Both the position numbers and the translations under genes were made by a program. Below the pieces are notes generated by a model, which was not told the DNA's origin, made no database searches, and worked only from the letters and a program-made list of their open reading frames with translations. From Verrucomicrobiaceae bacterium (GTDB taxonomy: Bacteria; Verrucomicrobiota; Verrucomicrobiia; Verrucomicrobiales; Verrucomicrobiaceae), in NCBI GenBank assembly GCA_016795365.1, contig JAEUHN010000040.1, positions 62,001-126,000 on the forward strand: DNA of 64,000 bases, read 5' to 3'. Shown here one piece after another: positions 286 through 64,000 of the stretch (positions are counted from its first letter, which is position 1; the number at the start of each line of letters is the position of its first letter).

Positions 286-3200
286 TCAGCGTGCGTCGAG
301 CTTCACGTAGTCGATGCCGACCATGTAGCTCTTCACCGCCTGCGGGTTGGTGCCCTTGATCGTGAAGGTGAGCTTGTGCTCGCCGACGTTGAGGTCGTGG
401 GTGCCGAGGTCGAGTTCGTCGGTGACGATGACGGCAGGGTAGTTGTAGCCGTCGAAGTCGGTGAGCACAACCTTGCCATCGAGCGCGATGTCACAGATGC
501 CGTAGTCGCGCGCTTTGGTGAGCAACGTCTTCACGGCGAACTTGCCGGCTTTCGCCACGGGCAGCGCGAGTGTGAGCGTGTTGCTGGGCTTCGCGCCGGT
601 CCACCAGAGCTGCGAGCCGCTGCTCCACTTGTTGCCGAAGCCGCCCATGCCTTGCGGACGGGTGCTGCCACCGGTCTTGGACAAGACCGTCATCGTCTCG
701 GCTTCGATCGCGCCTTCGACTTTGATCGCAGGACCACTTCGACCGGTGTCAGCCTTCGCGGGCGTGGCGTTGGTTTGCAGGTAAGCCACGAGCTGGCGGA
801 GCTGCTCCACGGGCAAGGCATCGAACAAGCCCTCGGGCATCGTGCTCACCTTCGACACGGTGCGCTTCTTGATCTCGCTCGTCGTGATCGTCTGCTCCAG
901 ACCACCGGGCATCGCGATGCGCACCGCGCTGGGCGAGTCCTCCTTCACCACGCCGCTGGCCACGCGTCCGTCCTTCAGCTCGAAGATGTTGAGCTGGTAG
1001 TCCTTGCCGATCACGGCGTTGGGATCGAGCACGTTGTCGAGCAAGTAATCGAGGTTACCGCGATTCGAGCCGGTGAGATCGGGGCCGACCTTCTGCCCTT
1101 CGCCAAACATCGCGTGGCACTGGCCGCACACGGCACTGAACAAGACTTTTCCTTTGGCTTTGTCGGCGGCAGCGAGATCGCCCTTCGTGAGCAACGCGCG
1201 GAACTTCTTCTTCCGCTCTTCCAGATCGGCTTTCGGTGCGTTGAGATCGCCGAAGGTGTCCTTCAGCAAGGCGGCCACGTCGGCGTTGTTCAAGGTCGCG
1301 AGCTGTCGCGCGAGGAAAGGCGAGAGCATCGTGCTTGGGATCGTCTTCGCCTTCACGGCGGTGAGCAGCGCCTTCGCACCCGAGGCGGTGGTGGCGAGGG
1401 TGTTGACGGCGTCTTGTTGTTCGATGACATTCATGTTGCCGAAGGTCATCACTAGCCATTTGGCATTGTCCGGGTGCTGGAGAACCGCAAGGCTCTGGAT
1501 AGCGGCCCGCTTGAGAGGTGAACCTGGGCCGGTGCCAGCGAGGATGTCGTGAAGGCCGAATTCCATCATCGTCGGGGTGCTGAACTTGGTCTGGGTGACC
1601 ACTCGAATGGCATTCAGAGCGAGAGGAACGTCGGCACGTTGATGGACGATGATGTCAGCGAAGTGCTGTAGCGTTGCCGTATCGCCCATGAAGGCTTCGA
1701 GTTCGAGTAAAGTCGCTTCGACTTGAGTCGAAGGTTCTTTGGATTCGGCTAAAGCCGAAACCACTTTGGTGCGCAGCGCTGCCCAGTTCTCCGGCTTGCT
1801 GATCTTGTTCCCGGCGCGGGCAGACTTCAGCACGGTCTCGAGCAAGGCATCGCGCATGGCCGCGTCCTTGGTCTCAGCGGCCACCGTGAGCAACCCGGTG
1901 CGTCCCGATTCCTCGGCACCCATGCGACGGTAGATGAACTCGGTGACCTTCGGCATCTTCGACACCTTCGCTAGTTCGAGTCCCGCCTTCGGGTCCGCGC
2001 CGACCAGTGGCTCGATGCCATACCAGATCAGCAACGGGATGTAGGGATCGTCTTTGTCCTCGCCGTGGGCGAGAAGGGCGCGAGCGATGGGGGTGCGCTG
2101 GTCGTTGGGGAGACGCTGGAGCGCGGAGGCCAGTTCGCGGCGGACGATGGGGGAAGGATCGCTCTTCGCCACTTCTGCCATCGCTTTCAATTCACTAGCA
2201 TCAAGGTCGGCGACAACTGCCGTCACGCCTTGGCCAGGTTTCAAAGGGTTTCCCGGGTTGTCGCCAAGAAACACTTCAAACGGCAGTGACAACTGCCGAA
2301 CAGCAGCCACGCGCACTCGTTCGTCCGCATCTTTTAGTTGCTTCCCAACAAGATCGGACGTCCTCGCCACACCGAGTGAGTAGGCGAGCCACATCTTTCT
2401 CAGGCTGGAAGAACCCGACGACAACTCGGCGAGGTCAAAAAGCTTGTTGTTGAGTGCTGTGCCGCGCACAACCCGTTCCATCAATACCCTCCGCGCCTGC
2501 CTTGAGAACCACTCGTTCTCCGTCTGCACGGCGAGCTTGGCGAGGGTCTCGTCGCTTTCCTTGGCGAGATCGAACGGGGCTTTCGGGAAAGGAGCGCGGG
2601 CGCTCTTGCCCGCTTCATTGTTCTTCGCGGCTTCGCCGCCATTTGTTTGAGTGCGGACAGGAGTGTCCGCGCTCCTTTCCACGCCTTCGCTGCCGACGTA
2701 GCTCACCTTGTAGATGCGTCCGTTGCTGCGATCCCAGATCTCCACCGCACCGCTGCCGCGATGGCACACCTGCTTGTCGCTCCAGTCACTGACATACAAG
2801 GAGCCATCGGGACCGACCTTCTGCGTGACAGGAATAAAATTCATGTCGTTGCTGCGCATGAAGTCGCTGCCGTGCTTGCCGATGTAGGTGCTGCCGTGCG
2901 GGTCGAGGTAATCGGTCACGAGGCGGTGGCCGTGCAGGTTGCCGAAGATGAGCCGGTTCCGATAGGTGGCCGGGAACTGGTTGCTCTGATAAATCGCGAG
3001 GCCGCAGTGCGCGTGGCCGCCGCCAGCGGCGTTGGTGTCGTCTTGCACGAGGCTGCCGTGATCGCGACCGCCCCAGTGTGCGTTGTCGCGGATGTTCCCG
3101 GCGTAGTGCGCGTGATCGGCGATGGTTTCGATATCCTCGTAAGTGTAGGGATTGAAGTGCTGCCCGCCCTGCCGGTGATAGCGAGCGCCAGGGACGATGT

Positions 3201-5283
3201 GATACAGATGCGGGATGACGCAGGCGGTGACGAAGAACTCGCCGTTCTGATCATAATCGAGGCCCCAGGGATTCGATGTGCCGTGCGCAAAGACTTCAAA
3301 CACATGCCGCACGGGATGATAGCGCCACACACCCGCATTCATGAGCGTGCGCTGCTCGTCGGGCGTGCCAGGCTTGCCGATCTTGGAATGCGTGAAGACG
3401 CCGTGGCAGCCGTAGAGCCAGCCATCGGGTCCCCAGAGGAAGGAGTTCAGCGTCTCGTGCGTGTCCTGCGTGCCGAAGCCGTCGAGGAGGGCGTAGGCGG
3501 TGAAGCTGAGGCCGGGGACTTTGGTCAAGGCAGTCAAGTTGGTCAAGATTGGGGTCAAGTCTTGCTTCGAGGCACCCTTGACCTCTTGACCCTTTGACTC
3601 CTTGACCAAGCCTACCGGCTTGTCCCCATCTCTCGGAATGAACATCAAATACGGAGCCGCGCCGATCCACACACCGCCGAAGCCAACCTCGATGCCACTC
3701 GCGAGATTGAGGCCTTCGCAGAAGGTCTTCTTTGTCTCGTAGGTGCCGTCGCCGTCGCTGTCTTCGAGGATGCGGATGCGATCCTTTCCGGCGCCGACTT
3801 CGCGGGGCTGCGGGTAGCTGTTGCCCTCGACAACCCAGAGGCGACCACGCTCGTCGAAGCAGAAGGCAATCGGTTGCACGATGTCGGGCTCGGCGGCGAT
3901 GAGGTCGGCTTTGAAGCCGGTGGGGAGTTGCAGGTTCTTCAGCGCGTCTTGCGGCGGCTGGCCGCGGGCATATTCGATCTGCGGCTTCAAGCCGGGGCCA
4001 TACATCTTCACGGGCTTCGCCTCGGCGGTCGAGTCGGTGCGCTTTTGCGTGAGGATGAAGACGCCGCTTTTGTTCGCGGAGACGATGTCGGGCAGGCCAT
4101 CACCGTTCACATCGCCCACGGTGACATCGACGCCGACGCTGCTGACGGTATCGACGAGGTGCGGGATGAAATCGACGCCGCCCTTGCCATCGCGCTTCGT
4201 CTCATACCAATAGACCACACGCGCACCGCGCTCGTCGGGATCGTGGCCGTTGTGCGCCCAGTAGCGTTTGCCGGTGACGATGTCCTGGATGCCGTCGCCA
4301 TTGATGTCTGCAAGTGCTGCAGCATGAGGCTGGGAGAAGACGATGCCGTAGTCGTTGTCGGCGGGGTTCTCGCTGGCGAGCATGACTTGCTTCCAGTTGG
4401 GCAGAGGAGCGCGGGCACTCTTGCCCGCATCGTCATGCTTCGCGGCTTCGCCGCCAGGATCAGAAGAGCGGACAGGAGTGTCCGCGCTCCCTTGTGGCTT
4501 GTTCTGCAAATACACCGCCACACCATAGCGATGTGCCTGCAGACTCGTGAAGACATCGTTGGTGCCGTTGCCGTCGAAATCATACGCGAACATCTGTGCG
4601 CCACCGCCGACACCGGCGGCGAAGTTGTGCTGCTCCCAGAGGCCGCTGTCCTTGTGCTCCCACCAGCGACGTGCTTCGAGGAGGTCGAGTTTCCCATCGC
4701 CATTCACATCGCCGACACCGAGGCCGTGCGTGAACTTCGCCACCTTCATGTCCTCACTGACGGCTACGAACGGCCACTTCTCGGTCGGCTTGTCCCAGTT
4801 CGGTGCGAACCAGCCGAACTTGCCGCCCGTGCTGCACACGATCTCCGGTTTGCCATCGCCGGTGATGTCGGTGAAGACGGGCGACTCGTTGTCCACCACG
4901 TCGGCGACGATGCTCATCGGCCACGGCTTGTCGTCGTGAACGCCGGAGTTCAGGTAGAGCCGCGCTTCTTTGCCAGGGAAGCCAAGGATGAGGATGTCGT
5001 TCTTCTTGTCGCCGTTGAAGTCATGGACGTAGGCGAAGAAGTTGTCCGAGTAGCCATTGATGCTGAAGATCTTCGGCTCGTAGTAGGCGTGCTTCTTTTC
5101 AAAGGCGGGGCCTTCCCACCAGAATGGACCCGCCACGATGTCGGGCTTGCCGTCGCCATTGATGTCGCCAATCGCCGCGCCCTCGGAGTAAAAGTCGCCG
5201 TGGAGCTGCTTGCGTTCCCAGGTGATCTGGGTGGCCGCGTGCAGCGAGGTGGCCGCGAAGACTAGAGCGAGGAGAACTTTCAT
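286..5283 (-). CDS. Giant secreted PVC-type cytochrome c dehydrogenase with FG-GAP, HEAT and C-terminal carbohydrate-binding-like region
   Basis: 1665 residues from the ATG at 5283, which gives a clean signal peptide (MKVLLALVFAATSLHAA); a TTG five codons upstream is less likely. Order of parts: signal peptide; FG-GAP/VCBS propeller with many DINGDGKPD-type calcium loops (about 20-440); PVC-type beta-propeller dehydrogenase (about 450-850, with FDERGRLWVVE and DSDGDGTYE); HEAT-like helices (about 900-1330); one c-type heme site CGQCH near residue 1385 with GPDLTGS after it; and a C-terminal beta domain beginning IEAETM, resembling a carbohydrate-binding module. Such proteins are exported in Planctomycetes and Verrucomicrobia. 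Oxidation of a sugar or polysaccharide is inferred and the substrate is unknown. The frame is interrupted by several translated palindromic repeats, described separately at 1709, 2209, 2588, 3521 and 4403. There is no operon partner. Confidence 0.88.
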   Translation of the reverse strand: MKVLLALVFAATSLHAATQITWERKQLHGDFYSEGAAIGDINGDGKPDIVAGPFWWEGPAFEKKHAYYEPKIFSINGYSDNFFAYVHDFNGDKKNDILILGFPGKEARLYLNSGVHDDKPWPMSIVADVVDNESPVFTDITGDGKPEIVCSTGGKFGWFAPNWDKPTEKWPFVAVSEDMKVAKFTHGLGVGDVNGDGKLDLLEARRWWEHKDSGLWEQHNFAAGVGGGAQMFAYDFDGNGTNDVFTSLQAHRYGVAVYLQNKPQGSADTPVRSSDPGGEAAKHDDAGKSARAPLPNWKQVMLASENPADNDYGIVFSQPHAAALADINGDGIQDIVTGKRYWAHNGHDPDERGARVVYWYETKRDGKGGVDFIPHLVDTVSSVGVDVTVGDVNGDGLPDIVSANKSGVFILTQKRTDSTAEAKPVKMYGPGLKPQIEYARGQPPQDALKNLQLPTGFKADLIAAEPDIVQPIAFCFDERGRLWVVEGNSYPQPREVGAGKDRIRILEDSDGDGTYETKKTFCEGLNLASGIEVGFGGVWIGAAPYLMFIPRDGDKPVGLVKESKGQEVKGASKQDLTPILTNLTALTKVPGLSFTAYALLDGFGTQDTHETLNSFLWGPDGWLYGCHGVFTHSKIGKPGTPDEQRTLMNAGVWRYHPVRHVFEVFAHGTSNPWGLDYDQNGEFFVTACVIPHLYHIVPGARYHRQGGQHFNPYTYEDIETIADHAHYAGNIRDNAHWGGRDHGSLVQDDTNAAGGGHAHCGLAIYQSNQFPATYRNRLIFGNLHGHRLVTDYLDPHGSTYIGKHGSDFMRSNDMNFIPVTQKVGPDGSLYVSDWSDKQVCHRGSGAVEIWDRSNGRIYKVSYVGSEGVERSADTPVRTQTNGGEAAKNNEAGKSARAPFPKAPFDLAKESDETLAKLAVQTENEWFSRQARRVLMERVVRGTALNNKLFDLAELSSGSSSLRKMWLAYSLGVARTSDLVGKQLKDADERVRVAAVRQLSLPFEVFLGDNPGNPLKPGQGVTAVVADLDASELKAMAEVAKSDPSPIVRRELASALQRLPNDQRTPIARALLAHGEDKDDPYIPLLIWYGIEPLVGADPKAGLELAKVSKMPKVTEFIYRRMGAEESGRTGLLTVAAETKDAAMRDALLETVLKSARAGNKISKPENWAALRTKVVSALAESKEPSTQVEATLLELEAFMGDTATLQHFADIIVHQRADVPLALNAIRVVTQTKFSTPTMMEFGLHDILAGTGPGSPLKRAAIQSLAVLQHPDNAKWLVMTFGNMNVIEQQDAVNTLATTASGAKALLTAVKAKTIPSTMLSPFLARQLATLNNADVAALLKDTFGDLNAPKADLEERKKKFRALLTKGDLAAADKAKGKVLFSAVCGQCHAMFGEGQKVGPDLTGSNRGNLDYLLDNVLDPNAVIGKDYQLNIFELKDGRVASGVVKEDSPSAVRIAMPGGLEQTITTSEIKKRTVSKVSTMPEGLFDALPVEQLRQLVAYLQTNATPAKADTGRSGPAIKVEGAIEAETMTVLSKTGGSTRPQGMGGFGNKWSSGSQLWWTGAKPSNTLTLALPVAKAGKFAVKTLLTKARDYGICDIALDGKVVLTDFDGYNYPAVIVTDELDLGTHDLNVGEHKLTFTIKGTNPQAVKSYMVGIDYVKLDAR
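1709..1767. repeat. 59-bp intragenic palindromic element, family 2 (copy 1)
   Basis: Two adjacent hairpins lie within matching outer ends: CTTCGACT/AGTCGAAG (1716-1733) and TTCGGCT/AGCCGAA (1744-1759), bounded by AAAGT and ACTTT. Read in the host frame it encodes KVVSALAESKEPSTQVEATL. A second copy of exactly the same length lies at 27914-27972; by hand alignment about 46 of 59 bases agree. Confidence 0.8.
2209..2298. repeat. Candidate intragenic palindromic insertion, single copy
   Basis: An 8-bp perfect inverted repeat GGCGACAA/TTGTCGCC (2209-2216 and 2258-2265), a 7-bp hairpin CGGCAGT/ACTGCCG (2281-2298) and an 11-bp direct repeat GACAACTGCCG (2212 and 2288) fall together in the HEAT region. 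The encoded stretch (VFLGDNPGNPLKPGQG) looks unlike neighbouring HEAT helices. Only one copy is seen, so calling it an insertion is an inference. Confidence 0.45.
2588..2678. repeat. 91-bp three-hairpin palindromic element, family 1 (copy A)
   Basis: Outer 26-bp arms (2588-2613 and 2653-2678) are inverted copies agreeing at 22 of 26 bases. Each arm folds on itself (for example GCGGACA/TGTCCGC) and a GCGGC-TTC-GCCGC hairpin sits exactly at the centre (2627-2639). It is translated in the host gene with the peptides SADTPVR, GGEAAK and AGKSARAP. Copies B (4403-4493) and C (27515-27606) share length and architecture. Confidence 0.9.
3521..3609. repeat. 89-bp intragenic palindrome built of GGTCAAG units, family 3
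   Basis: On the + strand four (G)GTCAAG-type units (3523, 3532, 3541, 3553) face four CTTGACC-type units (3577, 3585, 3593, 3601). The ends are a perfect 10-bp inverted repeat TTGGTCAAGG/CCTTGACCAA. It is read through in frame inside the propeller dehydrogenase domain, giving a Lys/Leu/Thr-rich linker. Confidence 0.8.
4403..4493. repeat. 91-bp three-hairpin palindromic element, family 1 (copy B)
   Basis: Same length and symmetry as copy A, with arms 4403-4428 and 4468-4493 and the central GCGGC-TTC-GCCGC hairpin at 4442-4454. It has the same orientation and the same encoded peptide pattern (SADTPVR, GGEAAK, AGKSARAP). It lies in the FG-GAP propeller region, about residues 263-293. Confidence 0.9.
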
Positions 5284-5436
5284 GGTGGTGGGATGCAAAC
5301 GCTATCAGACGTGGGCAGCATCAGACAAGATTTGTGTCTAATCTGACAGCAGCCTTCGTGGGGCAGGACTAGCGATGTTATGCCCACAAATAATGCACTA
5401 CCAAGCGAGGCAAGTTACGCCACCGGATGTCATCTG

Positions 5437-23430: not shown

Positions 23431-24123
23431 TCAGGCTTCGCCGAGCTTGGCCTTGAGGTCCGCGAGCTGGGCGCGCAGATCGGCGATCTCGCCCTCGATT
23501 CGCGCCCGCCACAGCTGGTCATCCTCGCGCGCCGATGCACTAGGAGCGAAACTCTCGGTCACCACGGTCCCGCCTTGAACCGTCGGAGCCTCGGGCACGC
23601 CAGACAAGATGTGAACGTAGAGCGGTGACTTCCGTCCGGGGCCCGGGGGAAAAAGCACGACAGTAGGCTCATTGCCATCGCCTGTGATCATCGTCTGCAA
23701 CGTGGCCTCCAGCGCAGCCAGATCAGGGAACGTGTAGAGCCGCTCGGTGCGCTGCCGCAGCTCGCCAATGGTCTGCGCACCCCGCAGCATGAGCACGCAC
23801 AGCACCGCGATCTGCGGCTTCTCCAGCCAGGGCAGCTTGCGGTCCAGGTTGTGCTTGAACTTCTGCACCCGGGAACCGGCCAGCGTGACCTGCAAGGCGA
23901 ACTGCCGCGCTTTCAAACCCTCCAGCGCCTCCATGACCGTCTCTTCGGCAAAGGCCACCACCGGCTCGCGATTGGTCGATTGATTGCACGCCGTGGTCAG
24001 GCCATTCAGCGTCATCGGATAGTAGTCCGGTGTGGTCGCTTCCTTTTCGAGCAAGCAGCCAAGCACACGGACTTGCTCAAAGGTCAGGGGCACAAAGGCG
24101 GAGTTGGTCGCAGTTTCTTCCAT
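23431..24123 (-). CDS. YceH family protein (DUF480)
   Basis: 230 residues. The conserved YceH start LTFEQVRVLGCLLEKEATTPDYYPMTLN is visible in parts, followed by NQSTNREPVV and a tandem winged-helix body with VLMLRGAQTIGELRQRTERL. A coiled-coil C-terminus (about 200-230) ends the protein. The family has a double winged-helix fold, but its function is not established. The gene is convergent with dgt and divergent from the small lipoprotein gene. Confidence 0.85.
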   Translation of the reverse strand: MEETATNSAFVPLTFEQVRVLGCLLEKEATTPDYYPMTLNGLTTACNQSTNREPVVAFAEETVMEALEGLKARQFALQVTLAGSRVQKFKHNLDRKLPWLEKPQIAVLCVLMLRGAQTIGELRQRTERLYTFPDLAALEATLQTMITGDGNEPTVVLFPPGPGRKSPLYVHILSGVPEAPTVQGGTVVTESFAPSASAREDDQLWRARIEGEIADLRAQLADLKAKLGEA

Positions 24124-24297
24124 GGTCTTGAGGGATGTGGGACGGTGCCAGCGGCCCCGCCCTTGTCAAACCACCGCCCCGGAAGTCCTGCGGCAGCGCA
24201 AAGTCGGTTCTGGCACTCGACGCGGAAAAATGCCAGACTCCCCGCCGATTGAATGAAAGCCGCCTGATCGCGGTCCATAGCACCCGAACGCTTCTCC

Positions 24298-24939
24298 ATG
24301 AAAACCAAGACACTCCTTCAGTTCTCGCTCGCCTGTGCCATCACCTTGCTCACCTCGTGCGTGGCCTATGATGCCGGATTCGATGGCGGTGGCTACAGCT
24401 CCGGGCCCGCGTATGGCAGCGGACCTGGCTACTACGGCAGCCCTGGCTACAGCTACAGCGACGACGACTTCTACTATTACGACGGCTACTCCAGGCCCAA
24501 CTACTACGGCCGACCATATGGCAGCTACACCGCAGGCTACTCCTACTATCGCGGCTCCGGTCTGTGCCCCATCTGCCATCACAGCACCTGCTCGGGCCAC
24601 AGCGGACGCCACCCTTCGAGCAGTGGCTCGCACAATCACTATGACTGGGATCGAGACCGCGATCACGATCACGATGATCACCGCAGCTACAGCAGCAGCC
24701 ACAACTCCTCCAGCAGCAATCACAAGAGCAGCGGAAGCAGCAGCCACAAAAGCAGCGGCGGCAATTCCTCCAGCTCCCACAAGAGCGGTGGATCTTCCTC
24801 ATCTCGAAGCAGCAATGACTTCCGGTCCTCCATCGAATCTGCACGCACCTCTTTACAACAGCGCATCAGCGGCGGCTCATCCTCCAACCATAGTCACAGC
24901 AGTTCCAAAAAGGACGATGACAAGAAGCACAAGCGCTAA
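24298..24939 (+). CDS. Low-complexity Ser/His/Gly/Tyr-rich lipoprotein
   Basis: 213 residues. A signal peptide ends in the lipobox LTSC (C21). A Tyr/Gly/Ser-rich stretch (25-85) precedes CPICHHSTCSGHSGRHP (about 88-106), whose three Cys and several His could bind metal. A long Ser/His/Lys/Asp repeat region follows, with many SSHKSSG-type units. No known domain is seen. The low-complexity composition suggests a surface or matrix role, but this is inference. It is monocistronic with a strong terminator just downstream. Confidence 0.7.
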   Translation: MKTKTLLQFSLACAITLLTSCVAYDAGFDGGGYSSGPAYGSGPGYYGSPGYSYSDDDFYYYDGYSRPNYYGRPYGSYTAGYSYYRGSGLCPICHHSTCSGHSGRHPSSSGSHNHYDWDRDRDHDHDDHRSYSSSHNSSSSNHKSSGSSSHKSSGGNSSSSHKSGGSSSSRSSNDFRSSIESARTSLQQRISGGSSSNHSHSSSKKDDDKKHKR

Positions 24940-25008: not shown

Positions 25009-28000
25009 CTACCCTTTTAGCGTCATCAGGTAGCTGATTAGATCCGTCGCCTGCTGATCGTTCAAGCCATCGATCAATCCCTCGGGCATCAGTGAGCGAC
25101 GGATGTAGCGCGTGCTGCGCACATCCTTCTTCGCGATGCGGCGATCCTGCACGCCGGGCTGGCGCACGACGAAGGCTTCCTTGTCTTCGCTGACGAAGAG
25201 CGCGTCCACGATGTCGCCCGACTTCAGTTCCACGCGGAAGATGCGATAGCCGGATTCCATCGCCGCGTTTGGCGTGAGGATGTTGCGCAGCACGCCTTCA
25301 AGTCCCATCGCCCCGGCGCCACTGAGGTTCGGACCGATCTGGCCGCCTTCGGGTCCGATCATGTGGCAGGCCTTGCAGATCATCGAGAGCGCCTTGCCTT
25401 GAGCGAGGCTGCCTTTCTTCAAGTCGAGCGTGCTGAGATGCGCGAACTTCTTGTCGAGCGCATCAGCTTGCTCAGCAGTGAGCAGCGGCGGCGTGTCGAT
25501 GGCCTTCGCGAGACGAGCACCCGTCCGACGAGGCTGTGGCTGGACCTTGGAGGGGACAAAGGTGCCTTGTCTTGGCTCAGAATCACTCATGACAATATCT
25601 CCGATCACTTTAATCCACGTTTCTCGCTCGAGCTTGCTGCCGGCATTGAGCACGCGGTCAAAGTTTTGCCGAATCTCCTGAGCCGTGCGCTCCTTCTTCC
25701 AGATGCGGAATTCCGTCATCACGCCTTCCGTGCCTTTCTTCGGACCGCTCCAACCAATGCGGCAGTTCTCCCACTTGTCCGGCGCGGGCACTTTCGACAC
25801 GGCATCGAGTTCGCCGTTCTGGTAGATCTTGATGAAGCCTTTCTCGTCGCGCGTCACAGCGATGTGTGTCCACAAGTCCGGTGTCATCGGCTTCTTCGCC
25901 ACCGCCACGTCATGCAGTTTGGGTCCGGCGAACACGCGGAACGTCGAGCCAAAGAAGTTCATCTCCACACCACCGGGCACGCCGAGGATGTCGTCCTCGT
26001 TGCCGATGCCGGGCGCGAGCTTGATCCAGGTCTCGACGGTGAAGGTGCCATCCAATGTGATCTTCGAATCAATCCACGCCTCCTCGCTGCCATCAAAGGC
26101 GAGCACATCGTGGAAGACGTGGCCGAGGCTGGCCATGAGCTTGTTCAGCTCCGCATCGTTGCCGAGCACGAGCGACAAACGCTCGGCTGTCGGCCCATCG
26201 AGATCGGTCTTCGGAATCTTGTTCGACGCGAGCGCAGCGACGATGGCCTTCGCGCCGGGCTTCGATGCGGAGAGCGCATTCAAAGCCGCATGTTGCTGTG
26301 CGCTGCTAAGCGTTGGATAAAGTGCGAAAAGCTGCTCGGCGGCGCTCGGATTCTTCGAGACGGCGAGAGCTGCGAGGGCTTCGTCGCGGATTGTCGGCCC
26401 AAATGTCGAGAGACTCACAAACAGCTCTGCCGCAGTGGAGCGAAGCTCTTTGAGAGCTTGAAGAAGCGAAACCATGGTTGCTTGCGAAAGCCGGTCATCA
26501 GGCGTGAATTCAACGCGGCGCGTTGCACGATCCCATAACTTTTCTTTAAGCTGAGTCAGCGCTGTGACGAGATCGCTCTCCAACGACGCCAACTGAAACC
26601 CGCCGATCAAACTCACGCTCAGCGCGCGCTCGTCATCCTTGCCACTGAGCAATGCCTTCGCCGCCTCGCTGAGCAAGGGCGCGATCTTCGTGGGATCTAG
26701 CTTGGTCTTCTGCGCGAGCAGCTTCTCCGCCACCGACGTGCGCGACTTGGGATTCGACAGCAACGCCTTCAAGGCATCGCCGCAACCCGCCTCCTCCGGG
26801 AACTGCGCGAGGCGCAGGAGTTCTTCATCGTTCGGTGCGCGATCCAACTGCGGCAGCAGCTTCGCCACGCGCGATGCACTCGCTTTCGGTTCCAGCGCGA
26901 GCGACGCGAGCACACGTGCTTCGACGGGAAGCTTCGCGGCCTCATCGGTGTCGAGGAACTTCACGACCACATCAGGATGCCGTTCCAGGAACATGCGCAC
27001 GAGGAAGCGCTCGAACTCACGATCATAGGCTTCGCCAACGGGGATGGGCTTGCCGGTGCGACCGGGGGCGGTGGGCTGTGTTAGGGAGGGTTTGGCGAAA
27101 GAGAGAAGTGACGACAGAACGCCCAAATGATCTGCTCGCTTGTCTTGAAGATATTTTGCAAGTCTCTGGATAGCAGCTTGCCGGACCTCTGGCGCTTCAC
27201 TAGTGGGCACTTCGCCAAAATCAGCCTCAAACTCAAAAGTCGAATCGGGAGTATCCGCAATCACCGTTCGCAGTAGCGGCGGTGAAGCAGACTTCTCAGG
27301 TGACGAAACAGAATTAGGTGCGGTCCAGTGAGCTTGGACACGTTTGGATACACTCTGGTTTCCATCATTTACCAGCTTCCAAAGACGCTCGCTTCCTTCG
27401 ATGTCACCTCGATCTGCCAACGTCTGCCACGCCAGATGCGCCCGCGCCGTTGGCTTCGTCCCGAGCAACGCGATCAACTCCTCCGTGCTCAGCTTCGTGA
27501 AGTCGGGGATCGTCATAGGAGCGCGGACACTCCTGTCCGCTTCTTTAGAATCAGGCGGCGAAGCCGCGTTGCTGTTCGATGCGGACAGGAGTGTCCGCGC
27601 TCCTTTCGCGTCGTCGCTTGCCTTCGGCTTCACGCGCCAGATGCGACCGCGAATCTTGTCACGATCTGGATGATTCCGCGGCACCTCGTTGTGACTGATG
27701 ATCTTGTTATACCAGTCCACGATGTAGAGGCAGCCATCGGGACCTTGCGTCATGGCGACGGGACGGAAGAACGGATCGTCGCAGGTCACGAGGTCGGCGG
27801 CTTGCTCGTAGCGCCAGCCGTTCGGGGCGCGCTGCGGATCTTTGCGACTGTCTTCGCGATGCATCGCGAGCGTTTGCACCTTCGAGATGATCGGGTTGGC
27901 GACGAACATGCACAACGTGGGTTCGGCTTTAGTCGAATCTTTCTGACCTTCGGCTGAAGCCGAAGCCACTTTCTTCAACTCCCCCTCGCCGAGCGCGAGT

Positions 28001-29595
28001 CCGCTCAGTCCCGTGCCACCCATCTTGAAGTCGGGTGTCTGCACCGGGAACTCCGGCTGGTAGCTCTTCCGCAACGCCTCCATGCCTCCCGGATAATACG
28101 CATACTCGTGGAAGGGCATGACCGGGTAGCCGTAGTCGTTCGCTTCCTGGATGAAGGCCTCGCCTTCGCCCGTGATCACGAGGCCCCAGATGTTGTTCGG
28201 GCCGAGGCTGGTGACTTCGAACTCACTGCCATCCGGCCTCATGCGCGCCATGCTGCACTTCGGGTAGTCGATGACATTCGCGTCCTCGCCGGGCTTGTGA
28301 ACCTTGCTGTTGTTGAACAGGCCCTGCGCCATCCAGATCCAGCCGCCGGGCGCACGCGTGAACTGATGCGGAAACAAATGCGAGTCCTGCACGCCGAAGC
28401 CGGTGAGGATCACCTTTGATTCGTCGGCCTTGCCATCGCTGTTCGTGTCCTTCATCAACAGGACGTCGTGACCGTGCAGCACGTAAGCGCTGTCGCCATT
28501 GCCCCACGGCAGCAGGCCGAGCGGAATGGCGAGACCATCGGCGAAGACAATCGGATTGGTGAGTCCGCCCGCGGGAAGCGTCGTATTCAACGCCTCGCGC
28601 GGATAGACCAGCACCTTGTCCTTGCCCTTCGCGGCATACACCGCCTCAGCAGCGGCGGGGTTCTCATTGCCATCGACAGGATACTCCAGCGCGGTCTGCG
28701 TCCACAGACGGCCGCGCTGATCGAAATACACGCTGACGAACTTGCCGATGCCGGGCGATTCCTTCACCACGAGTTCAATCTCGTAGCCCTCGGGCAGGTG
28801 GAACTTCTTGATCTGTTCTTCAGCGGTCAAAGGCGTGCCCTGGACGTTGTTGTAGCTGATGTCGCGCTTCGCTGGCTTGCCTGCATCGGCTTGCGTCTTC
28901 TTCGGCGGAGCGACCTTGGCACGCGCGGCATCAATGCCACCGAGCGATTGCCAGGTTGGTGCGTTCGGCGTGGCGGGCAGTTCTTCGATGGTCACGTCTT
29001 TGACCTGCACGAGACAAACCCCGCCGCTGTGAACCTGCGGTCCGATCAGACCATCGAGCGCGACGTTCTTGTCCTCCTCGACGTAATCCATGCACAGCAC
29101 GCCATTGATCCAGGTTTGAATGCGCGGCCCTTCTGCACGGATGCGATACTCGTTCCAGCCGAAGACATCGATCACTTTGTCGAGCGCGGTCTGCTGCTCA
29201 GGCGTGGGAGCCCAGATCACCTTGTTGCGACGGAACTCATCATAAATCTTCCCGAACCAACCCGCGCCACAGTCCACCTGATAGCCGCACATGTGGGCTG
29301 TGCCCGGCACACGCAGACTGCGGATTTGAATGCCGCTGTTCAACATTCCCGTCTTCGGATCGCCGCTGACCTTGATCTTGAGCTTCAGCTCGAAGTTCTG
29401 GTAGCTCTTCTTGGTGCAGATGAAGTAGTTCTCTTTGATCTTCTCCGTCGTGGAGCCGCCGGTGATCATGCCGTCTTCGACACGCCAGATCGCGGGATCG
29501 AAGTCCCAGCCGTCGAGCGACTTGCCGTCAAACAGAGAGACCGGCTGCGCGAAGGCAGCCGTCGAGAGCAGGAGAAGAGCGAGGAGTGAACGCAT
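25009..29595 (-). CDS. Giant secreted PVC-type cytochrome c dehydrogenase with N-terminal DUF1080 and LamG-like domains
   Basis: 1528 residues from ATG 29595, which gives a clean signal peptide (MRSLLALLLLSTAAFAQ). Order of parts: DUF1080/3-keto-disaccharide hydrolase domain (about 20-215, starting SLFDGKSLDGWDF); PVC-type propeller dehydrogenase (about 255-700); HEAT helices (about 720-1125); a LamG/concanavalin A-like domain (about 1140-1320, with TFTVETWIKL); and one cytochrome c site CKACH near residue 1405 followed by GPNLSGAG. DUF1080 relatives bind or cleave glycans, and at least some act on 3-keto-sugars, so oxidation and cleavage of a polysaccharide is a reasonable inference. Two palindromic repeats (27515 and 27914) are translated within it. 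An AraC regulator gene lies 74 bp upstream on the same strand. Confidence 0.88.
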   Translation of the reverse strand: MRSLLALLLLSTAAFAQPVSLFDGKSLDGWDFDPAIWRVEDGMITGGSTTEKIKENYFICTKKSYQNFELKLKIKVSGDPKTGMLNSGIQIRSLRVPGTAHMCGYQVDCGAGWFGKIYDEFRRNKVIWAPTPEQQTALDKVIDVFGWNEYRIRAEGPRIQTWINGVLCMDYVEEDKNVALDGLIGPQVHSGGVCLVQVKDVTIEELPATPNAPTWQSLGGIDAARAKVAPPKKTQADAGKPAKRDISYNNVQGTPLTAEEQIKKFHLPEGYEIELVVKESPGIGKFVSVYFDQRGRLWTQTALEYPVDGNENPAAAEAVYAAKGKDKVLVYPREALNTTLPAGGLTNPIVFADGLAIPLGLLPWGNGDSAYVLHGHDVLLMKDTNSDGKADESKVILTGFGVQDSHLFPHQFTRAPGGWIWMAQGLFNNSKVHKPGEDANVIDYPKCSMARMRPDGSEFEVTSLGPNNIWGLVITGEGEAFIQEANDYGYPVMPFHEYAYYPGGMEALRKSYQPEFPVQTPDFKMGGTGLSGLALGEGELKKVASASAEGQKDSTKAEPTLCMFVANPIISKVQTLAMHREDSRKDPQRAPNGWRYEQAADLVTCDDPFFRPVAMTQGPDGCLYIVDWYNKIISHNEVPRNHPDRDKIRGRIWRVKPKASDDAKGARTLLSASNSNAASPPDSKEADRSVRAPMTIPDFTKLSTEELIALLGTKPTARAHLAWQTLADRGDIEGSERLWKLVNDGNQSVSKRVQAHWTAPNSVSSPEKSASPPLLRTVIADTPDSTFEFEADFGEVPTSEAPEVRQAAIQRLAKYLQDKRADHLGVLSSLLSFAKPSLTQPTAPGRTGKPIPVGEAYDREFERFLVRMFLERHPDVVVKFLDTDEAAKLPVEARVLASLALEPKASASRVAKLLPQLDRAPNDEELLRLAQFPEEAGCGDALKALLSNPKSRTSVAEKLLAQKTKLDPTKIAPLLSEAAKALLSGKDDERALSVSLIGGFQLASLESDLVTALTQLKEKLWDRATRRVEFTPDDRLSQATMVSLLQALKELRSTAAELFVSLSTFGPTIRDEALAALAVSKNPSAAEQLFALYPTLSSAQQHAALNALSASKPGAKAIVAALASNKIPKTDLDGPTAERLSLVLGNDAELNKLMASLGHVFHDVLAFDGSEEAWIDSKITLDGTFTVETWIKLAPGIGNEDDILGVPGGVEMNFFGSTFRVFAGPKLHDVAVAKKPMTPDLWTHIAVTRDEKGFIKIYQNGELDAVSKVPAPDKWENCRIGWSGPKKGTEGVMTEFRIWKKERTAQEIRQNFDRVLNAGSKLERETWIKVIGDIVMSDSEPRQGTFVPSKVQPQPRRTGARLAKAIDTPPLLTAEQADALDKKFAHLSTLDLKKGSLAQGKALSMICKACHMIGPEGGQIGPNLSGAGAMGLEGVLRNILTPNAAMESGYRIFRVELKSGDIVDALFVSEDKEAFVVRQPGVQDRRIAKKDVRSTRYIRRSLMPEGLIDGLNDQQATDLISYLMTLKG
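27515..27606. repeat. 92-bp three-hairpin palindromic element, family 1 (copy C, inverted)
   Basis: Arms 27515-27540 and 27581-27606 match those of copies A and B. The central hairpin is GCGGC-GAA-GCCGC (27555-27567), the reverse complement of the centre in A and B. Relative to its host gene the element is therefore inverted. It is still open and encodes a different peptide (GARTLLSA, NAASPP, ADRSVRAP). Confidence 0.9.
27914..27972. repeat. 59-bp intragenic palindromic element, family 2 (copy 2)
   Basis: The same 59-bp architecture as 1709-1767, with hairpins TTCGGCT/AGTCGAA and TTCGGCT/AGCCGAA and ends resembling AAAGTGG/CCACTTT. In the host frame it encodes KVASASAEGQKDSTKAEPTL, closely matching the peptide of copy 1. 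Confidence 0.8.
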
Positions 29596-29669
29596 GATAG
29601 GCAGAAGAACGCCGCTCATTGCAGCAGGTTCGCACGATCATGTCCACATGGAGGTGACTGAAACGCACC

Positions 29670-55255: not shown

Positions 55256-55398
55256 GGCGCTGGCTATAGCGGCAGCGACGGCGGGTTTCAAAGGGAAAGC
55301 CGGGGGTGCGGAGTTGTAGCCCGCCCCATTAAGGTGGGACCTGAGGCGCTTCCTTCTCGTGCCACACCTTCGTTGGGGAAGCGCTGAACCATGTTTTT

Positions 55399-55496
55399 GA
55401 ACCACTAATGCACACGGATAGACACTAATAATCCCTGACGAGGAAAGGCATTCTGACACTTCATTATTAGTGTGGATGAGTGTCCATTAGTGGTTC
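55399..55496. repeat. 34-bp inverted repeat with CACTAAT units
   Basis: Left arm 55399-55432 (GAACCACTAATG at its outer end, ACTAATAAT inside) and right arm 55463-55496 (ATTATTAGTG inside, CATTAGTGGTTC outside) are near-complete inverted copies around a 30-bp loop. It is markedly more AT-rich than its surroundings. Related CACTAATG repeats occur in intergenic DNA of many bacteria. Confidence 0.75.
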
Positions 55497-55596
55497 AGCA
55501 GCTTCAATCAGCGCCTCCCTAGCTATGACGCGCAGCACCTCGCCGTGACGAAACGCTGCGTCTCCCACCTCGCTGAGGTCGGCTGCAACCATCATC

Positions 55597-62280: not shown

Positions 62281-62721
62281 ATGTCTCACGAGATCACTCT
62301 TTTCCAAGCGCTTTCCAGCCTGCCGCACGGCCCTGAATTTCGATTTATCGACGCTGTGACAGAACTCGATCCCGGAGTCTCGGCTAAGGCCATGTGGACG
62401 CTCAAAGGCACCGAAGAATTCCTGCGCGGGCACTTCCCAGGTTCGCCCCTGTTACCCGGCGTCATCATGATCGAGGCCCTGGCCCAGCTCGGCGGCATCC
62501 TCGCTCAAACCCGCCCTGGCATCGCCCCTATGAGCAACCTCCGCCTCACCGCCGTGCGCCAGTTCAAAATCCTCGGCAGCATCACACCGGGACAAAGCCT
62601 TGTGCTTGAAGCCAAGATCGAAGGCGCACTCGATGGCGTGGTGCAGGTGAGCGGATCAGTGCTGGATGACCAGGGCAACAAGCTGGCCATGGGCGGCGTG
62701 CTGCTCGCCGGCCAGCTGTGA
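62281..62721 (+). CDS. FabZ-like 3-hydroxyacyl-ACP dehydratase
   Basis: 146 residues from ATG 62281 (MSHEITLFQALSSLP). The hot-dog fold active site is LRGHFPGSPLLPGVIMIEALAQ, with the His of GHFPG and Glu of EALAQ as catalytic residues. FabZ proteins dehydrate 3-hydroxyacyl-ACP in fatty-acid synthesis. Since it is divergent from the PlsC-GT2-methyltransferase operon and away from other fab genes, a specialised role in that lipid pathway is possible. Confidence 0.85.
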   Translation: MSHEITLFQALSSLPHGPEFRFIDAVTELDPGVSAKAMWTLKGTEEFLRGHFPGSPLLPGVIMIEALAQLGGILAQTRPGIAPMSNLRLTAVRQFKILGSITPGQSLVLEAKIEGALDGVVQVSGSVLDDQGNKLAMGGVLLAGQL

Positions 62722-62725
62722 TCCG

Positions 62726-64000
62726 CTACAACCGCCGCAGCAAGATGCTGCCCAGCAGCGCTGCGAGGGCCGTCAGGTAACTCCACGATTGCACCGGCAC
62801 CGGATACGTAACGGCGGCGAGTCCCTCGGTGGGCTTGGCAGCATCGAAGGCATTCGCTTTGGCAAGGACAGGCGCGGGATCGACGCCGAGCTGATACTCG
62901 TTCGGATACGGCGCGCGGTAGTGCTTCACGATGAGCTTGTTGTGCAGCGTGTCGTGCAGACGAACGGTGAAGGCGGATCGTCCGGCGAGCGGGATGGCGA
63001 CTTCGTAACGCCCGAGGCCCGACTCATTGACGGTGAGCTTTTCGGATGCGCCGTTCTCATCGGCAATCGCTGCGTCCCAAGGGATCGCGCTGAGCGGACT
63101 GCCGCTCGTATCGGTGCGGTCGATGCGCAGATGCCAGATGTTGTTCGCGATGGTGGACTTCACATCCACGCCTTCCACATCGGCCTTACGCGCCGCGCCG
63201 CGAAGGACCTGAGCCCAGAACGACCCGCACGACTCCCAGCCCAACCACTCCGCTCCCCATTTGTCCGTGAGGTCGCTGGTGAAGCACAAGCCGGTGCCCA
63301 AGCCAAACCTGCCCACCGAGAGCAGCGGATCGCCGGTTTCCAGCGAGAGCACGGTCTGCGCCGTCGGCTTCGCCTGCGTCATCACAAAACCTAGCACCGC
63401 GGGCAACGCATCCTGACGCACGCCGCTGATCAGCGGATGCTCCATCGACACGATGGGCGGAAACAAGTCTTCCTGAATCGCGCTCTTGCTCGCCTGCATC
63501 GTCTCGCGCGTGAAGATCTGCGGCACATTCGCGGGATCAGCCGTTTCGTAATAGCGACCACGCCCTGCCTCGGCGATCTGCGACAAGATTTCGCGCGCCG
63601 CTCCATCACCCAGTGCCACGCAGGACACGGTCACACCTTCATCCACCAGCCGTTGCGTGAGCCCGAGGAAGTCCGATTCCTGCGACACACCATCTGTGAG
63701 CAGGATCATGTGTTTCACCTTGGCTGAGGCATTGCGTAGCATCTCGCCGCCAATGTCCATGCCTGGATACATGTTCGTGCCGCCACCAGCCTCCAGGGAA
63801 TCAATCGCTGCCTGAATGCTGCCTACATCGCTCGCAGGCGTCATCTCGCAGATCGTCTGCGCTTCAGAGTCAAAGCCAACCACCGCGACCTGATCGCGAC
63901 CCGTGAGCAGCTCGACCGCCATCTTCGCCGCCTGCCGCGCCAACTGAATCGGCACGCCCGACATCGAGCCCGACTTGTCCATCACCAGCGCGAGCGCCAT
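62726..64000 (-). CDS. VWA-domain membrane protein, C-terminal part (partial)
   Basis: The frame runs to base 64000 without a real start, leaving the last 424 residues. A VWA domain with LVMDKSGSMSG (metal-ion site DKSGS) begins at the edge, followed by GGGTNMYPG and LLTDGVSQESD. After a middle region with WGAEWLGWESCG, the protein ends in a transmembrane helix (WSYLTALAALLGSILLRRL). In this phylum such proteins often carry a glutamine amidotransferase-like region and N-terminal helices, beyond this window. Its role is unknown. It is convergent with the FabZ-like gene. Confidence 0.8.
   Translation of the reverse strand: MALALVMDKSGSMSGVPIQLARQAAKMAVELLTGRDQVAVVGFDSEAQTICEMTPASDVGSIQAAIDSLEAGGGTNMYPGMDIGGEMLRNASAKVKHMILLTDGVSQESDFLGLTQRLVDEGVTVSCVALGDGAAREILSQIAEAGRGRYYETADPANVPQIFTRETMQASKSAIQEDLFPPIVSMEHPLISGVRQDALPAVLGFVMTQAKPTAQTVLSLETGDPLLSVGRFGLGTGLCFTSDLTDKWGAEWLGWESCGSFWAQVLRGAARKADVEGVDVKSTIANNIWHLRIDRTDTSGSPLSAIPWDAAIADENGASEKLTVNESGLGRYEVAIPLAGRSAFTVRLHDTLHNKLIVKHYRAPYPNEYQLGVDPAPVLAKANAFDAAKPTEGLAAVTYPVPVQSWSYLTALAALLGSILLRRL

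Follow-up and report, generated by a model that had tools for sequence, protein, structure and literature searches.

The window analysed here, a stretch of 64,000 nucleotides from a Verrucomicrobiaceae genome, holds three copies of one near-palindromic element, all of them within minus-strand genes for PVC-type heme-binding proteins. The first host gene (286..5298, minus strand) encodes a CxxCH protein with FG-GAP repeats and carries copies A (2591..2675, minus strand) and B (4406..4490, minus strand), each 85 nt long and GAA-sense; copy B lies at host residue 270 and copy A at residue 875, in the corresponding linker, which follows the propeller. The second host gene (25009..29619, minus strand) encodes a protein of 1536 residues with 3keto-disac_hyd, DUF7133/TIGR02604, laminin-G-like and cytochrome c (TIGR02603) regions, and carries copy C in the linker joining its propeller and helical domain. 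The first-pass annotation had placed copy C at 27515-27606; the element is indeed found there, with its ends now refined to 27518..27603 (86 nt, minus strand, TTC-sense relative to the host gene). Copy C is a complete REPIN that starts with GGAGC and finishes with GCTCC. Its 23-nt REP (27518..27540, plus strand), composed of a GGAG tag and the hairpin GCGGAC-ACTCCT-GTCCGC (GCGGACACTCCTGTCCGC), is followed by a 40-nt spacer and by the inverted REP (27581..27603, minus strand). The spacer contains the central hairpin GCGGC-GAA-GCCGC (GCGGCGAAGCCGC; 27555..27567, plus strand), which gives a direction to the otherwise near-palindromic element. The host reading frame crosses copy C uninterrupted, the REPIN peptide beginning at residue 673 and reading GARTLLSASNSNAASPPDSKEADRSVRAP. 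Translation confirmed the peptides GARTLLSA, NAASPP and ADRSVRAP that had been reported earlier for this copy, and it is likewise correct that copy C is the same element as A and B, lies in frame within its host gene and is inverted with respect to it, the host-sense centre being TTC in copy C but GAA in A and B. The peptides read from copies A and B are RSADTPVRTQTNGGEAAKNNEAGKSARAP and GSADTPVRSSDPGGEAAKHDDAGKSARAP; compared with these, copy C uses a different frame in its 5′ arm and the same frame in its 3′ arm.

Six REP arms are present in the window, where 0.39 would be expected, and 71 (at no more than 2 mismatches) in the genome to which the window belongs (6.74 Mb, 55 contigs), with 0 for a reversed-pattern control; the REP doublets of this genome show several spacer types. 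Matches to the R1 covariance model, which finds the element independently of reading frame, occur in at least 61 of the 68 family genomes, and the REP is present in 62 of 115 related genomes. The minimum-energy fold of copies A, B and C is a long hairpin. Despite being the lowest-energy fold, the full-length palindrome was rejected as the conserved structure on the basis of covariation, in which the full-length hairpin falls below its own shuffles. Three separate hairpins, by contrast, have 98.1% of cells paired in an alignment of 44 copies, with 38 double-change cells, and 0 of 500 shuffles scored as high. The element is a REPIN: two GGAG-tagged, inverted REP hairpins flank a spacer with the central hairpin, and the genome contains many copies. 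We class it as a new family of this known kind of element. Its hairpin foot is GGAG plus one C ahead of the stem, where a GTAG-type tetranucleotide is usual.

REPIN anatomy and recognition by RAYTs have been described previously (PMC3116915 and PMC8266576, in the parts available), and the present family is also linked to such a gene. Relatives carry an IS200-like transposase gene of ~205 codons with the element on both sides (e.g. L177). Counted by hand, an R1 match lies no more than 250 bp from the gene, on one side or both, at 21 of the best 30 RAYT loci; at 13 of the best 16, both sides have one. The best NCBIfam match of the transposase is the REP-associated tyrosine transposase (NF047646), although with 60.8-64.3 bits the proteins score below the curated cut-off of 80; the RAYT of the window genome exceeds the PF01797 cut-off. 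This homologue lies on contig 30, is flanked by a long-spacer REP type, and its RAYT-like frame terminates within a REP (KERGHSCPPAGAT; L058 2256-2915, G000:C30). Judging from these sequences, the RAYT, an IS200-like HUH tyrosine transposase, probably moves the REPIN. Another REP family, GGAGTGACGG, also adjoins RAYT-like genes (G056:C25 ~23884-24615 and G017:C4 ~62405-63137), which suggests that there may be one RAYT for each REP family. Rickettsia palindromic elements (PMC2229807, PMC10969869) are likewise palindromic, in frame, translated and found in many unrelated genes, and the present element could be a relative of these, unrelated to RAYT. As described in the available parts of those reports, the Rickettsia elements are longer (105-146 bp), and no RAYT association is seen there. 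The GGAG-tagged REP hairpins and the flanking RAYT genes found here make such an identity barely credible.

It had been proposed that an element open in both directions would tolerate random orientation within coding sequence. The premise is sound, as copy C has four of its six frames open, on both strands. To describe orientation in genes, we read 113 places in the 68 family genomes, which were hits of the REP or doublet patterns or stood among the best R1 matches listed, a sample that favours well-preserved copies and under-represents weak and decayed ones. ORF length and codon score assigned 37 places to genes, or 36 after one of them (L343; 283 aa, low score, TTC phase 1) was dropped before the sites were counted. 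Among these 36 in-gene copies, 34 are GAA-sense and 2 are TTC-sense (34 to 3 with L343 included). The GAA-sense copies comprise 32 in phase 1 and 2 scored as phase 0; L375 was left at phase 0 as scored by the script, though its peptide GTPAR sits in the usual frame. The TTC-sense copies, both in phase 0, are copy C and a relic, matched weakly (59 bits), at L173 470-554. This relic has the frame of copy C and directly follows a CAICH heme motif in a cytochrome-like stretch. The script grouped the copies into 16 site clusters, and 17 were obtained once copy C had been separated by hand from site A, which lies in another gene with a similar linker. By host site, 15 of 17 are GAA (P about 4e-4) and 14 of 17 are GAA phase 1 (P 6e-9), and in the window genome alone GAA exceeds TTC by 7 to 1 (P 0.035); these P values are set against a rough null, the frames that are open in copies located outside genes, with the in-gene copies being open by sample selection and related sites partly dependent. 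Tabulation thus finds a strong single-orientation bias, the very outcome that had been named as refuting evidence, and the proposal of random orientation did not survive it. Stop codons are depleted relative to shuffles (3.51 open frames of six versus 2.60-2.83), but the effect is modest and comes from 43 non-independent copies outside genes. Despite this depletion and the open frames of copy C itself, the ratios of 34:2 (copies) and 15:2 (sites) leave very little probability that orientation in genes is random. We rejected the idea that stop-free arms reflect adaptation to coding: half of the shuffled arms do equally well (P 0.49). A length of 1 mod 3 is found in 33 of the 36 in-gene copies versus 28 of 76 outside genes, which is partly a consequence of the open-frame requirement.

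Stops were also rejected as the reason for the preferred orientation, because the mirror reading, in which the phase is retained, the peptides of the arms hardly change and only the spacer is reversed, is mostly open (in 25 of 36 in-gene and 45 of 76 other copies). Since the arms are mirror images, inversion in the same phase swaps the spacer only. In the in-gene copies, the mean GRAVY of the spacer is -1.35 in the GAA sense (polar) versus +1.50 in the mirror reading (hydrophobic), examples being NNGGEAAKNE and, on inversion, FILRGFAAIIF. As the mirror reading is mostly open yet has a hydrophobic spacer, we infer that the bias in orientation and frame results from selection acting on the peptide, with one orientation and phase dominating because its spacer is polar rather than hydrophobic. 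Hydropathy alone leaves part of the bias unexplained: 13 of 18 copies are open in TTC phase 2, a frame that is polar (GRAVY -1.16) and yet unused. In several copies both arms, read in this frame, contain cysteines (GHSCP, GQECP), a possible reason for its disuse. In copy C itself, the mirror phase-1 reading contains two stops, and this copy escapes the hydrophobic reading through the different phase of its 5′ arm.

Alternatively, the bias could arise at insertion, if the RAYT targeted, on the strand that replication exposes, a short motif (a 5′ flank of roughly GAAR) whose codon phase is fixed. Indeed, many in-gene copies have GAAA or GAAG immediately 5′ of GGAG, and at site B near-intact REPINs occur in five genomes, that of the window and four others, and are absent from a genome of the same genus. 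However, in many copies the 3′ flank, as judged by eye, mirrors the 5′ flank, and the ends therefore carry no information on the centre; moreover, copies outside genes have no fixed length mod 3. We regard targeted insertion as unlikely. The explanation that we favour, with considerable confidence, is that a REPIN spread by RAYT is inserted in any phase and direction, and that selection then keeps the copies that form in-frame linkers of polar peptide. According to this explanation, the REPIN would be a non-autonomous pair of inverted REP hairpins mobilised by RAYT and inserted at the DNA level without preference for phase or direction. Selection would purge most in-gene insertions, and the survivors would be those in flexible linkers that keep the frame and contribute a polar peptide of ~28-29 residues, which is presumably made in the cell. 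Copy C would then represent an uncommon second solution, with the 5′ arm in another phase and the inverted centre read as the polar peptide NAASPP.

The structural setting of copy C is consistent with a linker. The AlphaFold model covers host residues 255-900; in it, the insert (model residues 419-447) has a pLDDT of ~50 over most of its length, rising above 90 just past it, and its neighbours are the well-modelled propeller and the helical domain; copy C is thus predicted to sit in a disordered linker. Most of the 78 orthologs have a short linker at this place, and fourteen have a long one. Among the fourteen, seven form strong hairpins (z -7 or lower) with sequences other than that of the REPIN, and one further long linker (L113) holds this REPIN, read in the frame of copy C. 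The palindromes of two ortholog linkers, GTAGTTCGGGCTTCAGCCCG and GGAGTGACGGCTTCCAGCCGTCA, are repeated in 32 and 16 of the 68 family genomes, respectively, and represent family-wide REP families of their own. At site A, decayed REPINs are found in several species with the usual frame retained, and relics at site B keep the same frame. The spacer of the window copy at site B has an identity of 0.64-0.69 to those of other species, similar to the 24/39 to 30/39 of unrelated sites. Such divergence is compatible with repeated insertion, and under shared descent an unconstrained spacer could diverge equally fast. It is conceivable, though we advance it only tentatively, that the linkers of these giant heme-binding proteins are standing landing pads, entered in different species by several unrelated REPIN families, from which one orientation and frame survives and in which the hairpin decays into ordinary linker peptide. 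If so, REPINs would provide a steady supply of new linker sequence, with arms and spacer fitted to translation. Orthologs of the copy C host (L132, L121, L103, L107, L136 and L099) have a second insertion site near host residue 993, occupied by short REP doublets of 61-64 nt that carry a GTGATG/GTAACG-type end and are all in phase 1. Elsewhere, a single in-frame REP (L053 3161-3183, G000:C23) separates the domains of a cas4-cas1 fusion gene and encodes GARTLLSA.

REPs are regarded as extragenic. The commonest REP 16-mers of Pseudomonas fluorescens SBW25 occur 1,067 times, and only 14 of these occurrences overlap genes (PMC3116915, available part). With the REPINs/BIMEs of SBW25, as described in the same part, the present element shares the inverted REP doublet, the short spacer, the high copy number and the link to RAYT, whereas GGAG in place of the usual GTAG, a third, central hairpin and the many in-gene copies set it apart. 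The intragenic GTAG REPs of Opitutus terrae (PMC3733652) come from the same phylum and also form in-gene REP dimers, with inserts coding for 20-30 residues, but they belong to another REP family, and no frame or orientation rule is seen in the available part of that report. In-frame REPs, for which linkers or loops were suggested, also characterize the tnpA-REP gene insertions of subclass 2.4 (PMC6006769, available part); in contrast to these, the present hosts are metabolic, kinase and methylase genes, and the RAYT frame of the window genome ends in a REP. Within the literature searched, which lay mostly outside subscription papers, we came across neither a rule of one frame and one orientation nor a shared hot spot in linkers. 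In-gene repeats are already known from Opitutus and Rickettsia, and it is the frame and orientation rule together with the linker hot spot that look new. The present family has repeatedly been retained in genes, in one frame and in linkers common to several species. Owing to the near mirror symmetry of the element, inversion changes almost only the spacer peptide, and the natural copies therefore constitute a built-in test of which linker sequences are tolerated. Furthermore, intact, partly decayed and relic copies represent stages on the way from mobile DNA to ordinary protein sequence.

Other repeats were noted in the window and its genome. A separate A+T-rich inverted repeat with 57-nt arms occupies 55376-55519 of the window, and a 33-base piece of its arm has three occurrences in the genome, two of which are within this repeat. 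REP arms or clusters are located near the ends of several contigs of the window genome (C3, C8, C24 and C30), and these ends are probably assembly breaks at repeats.
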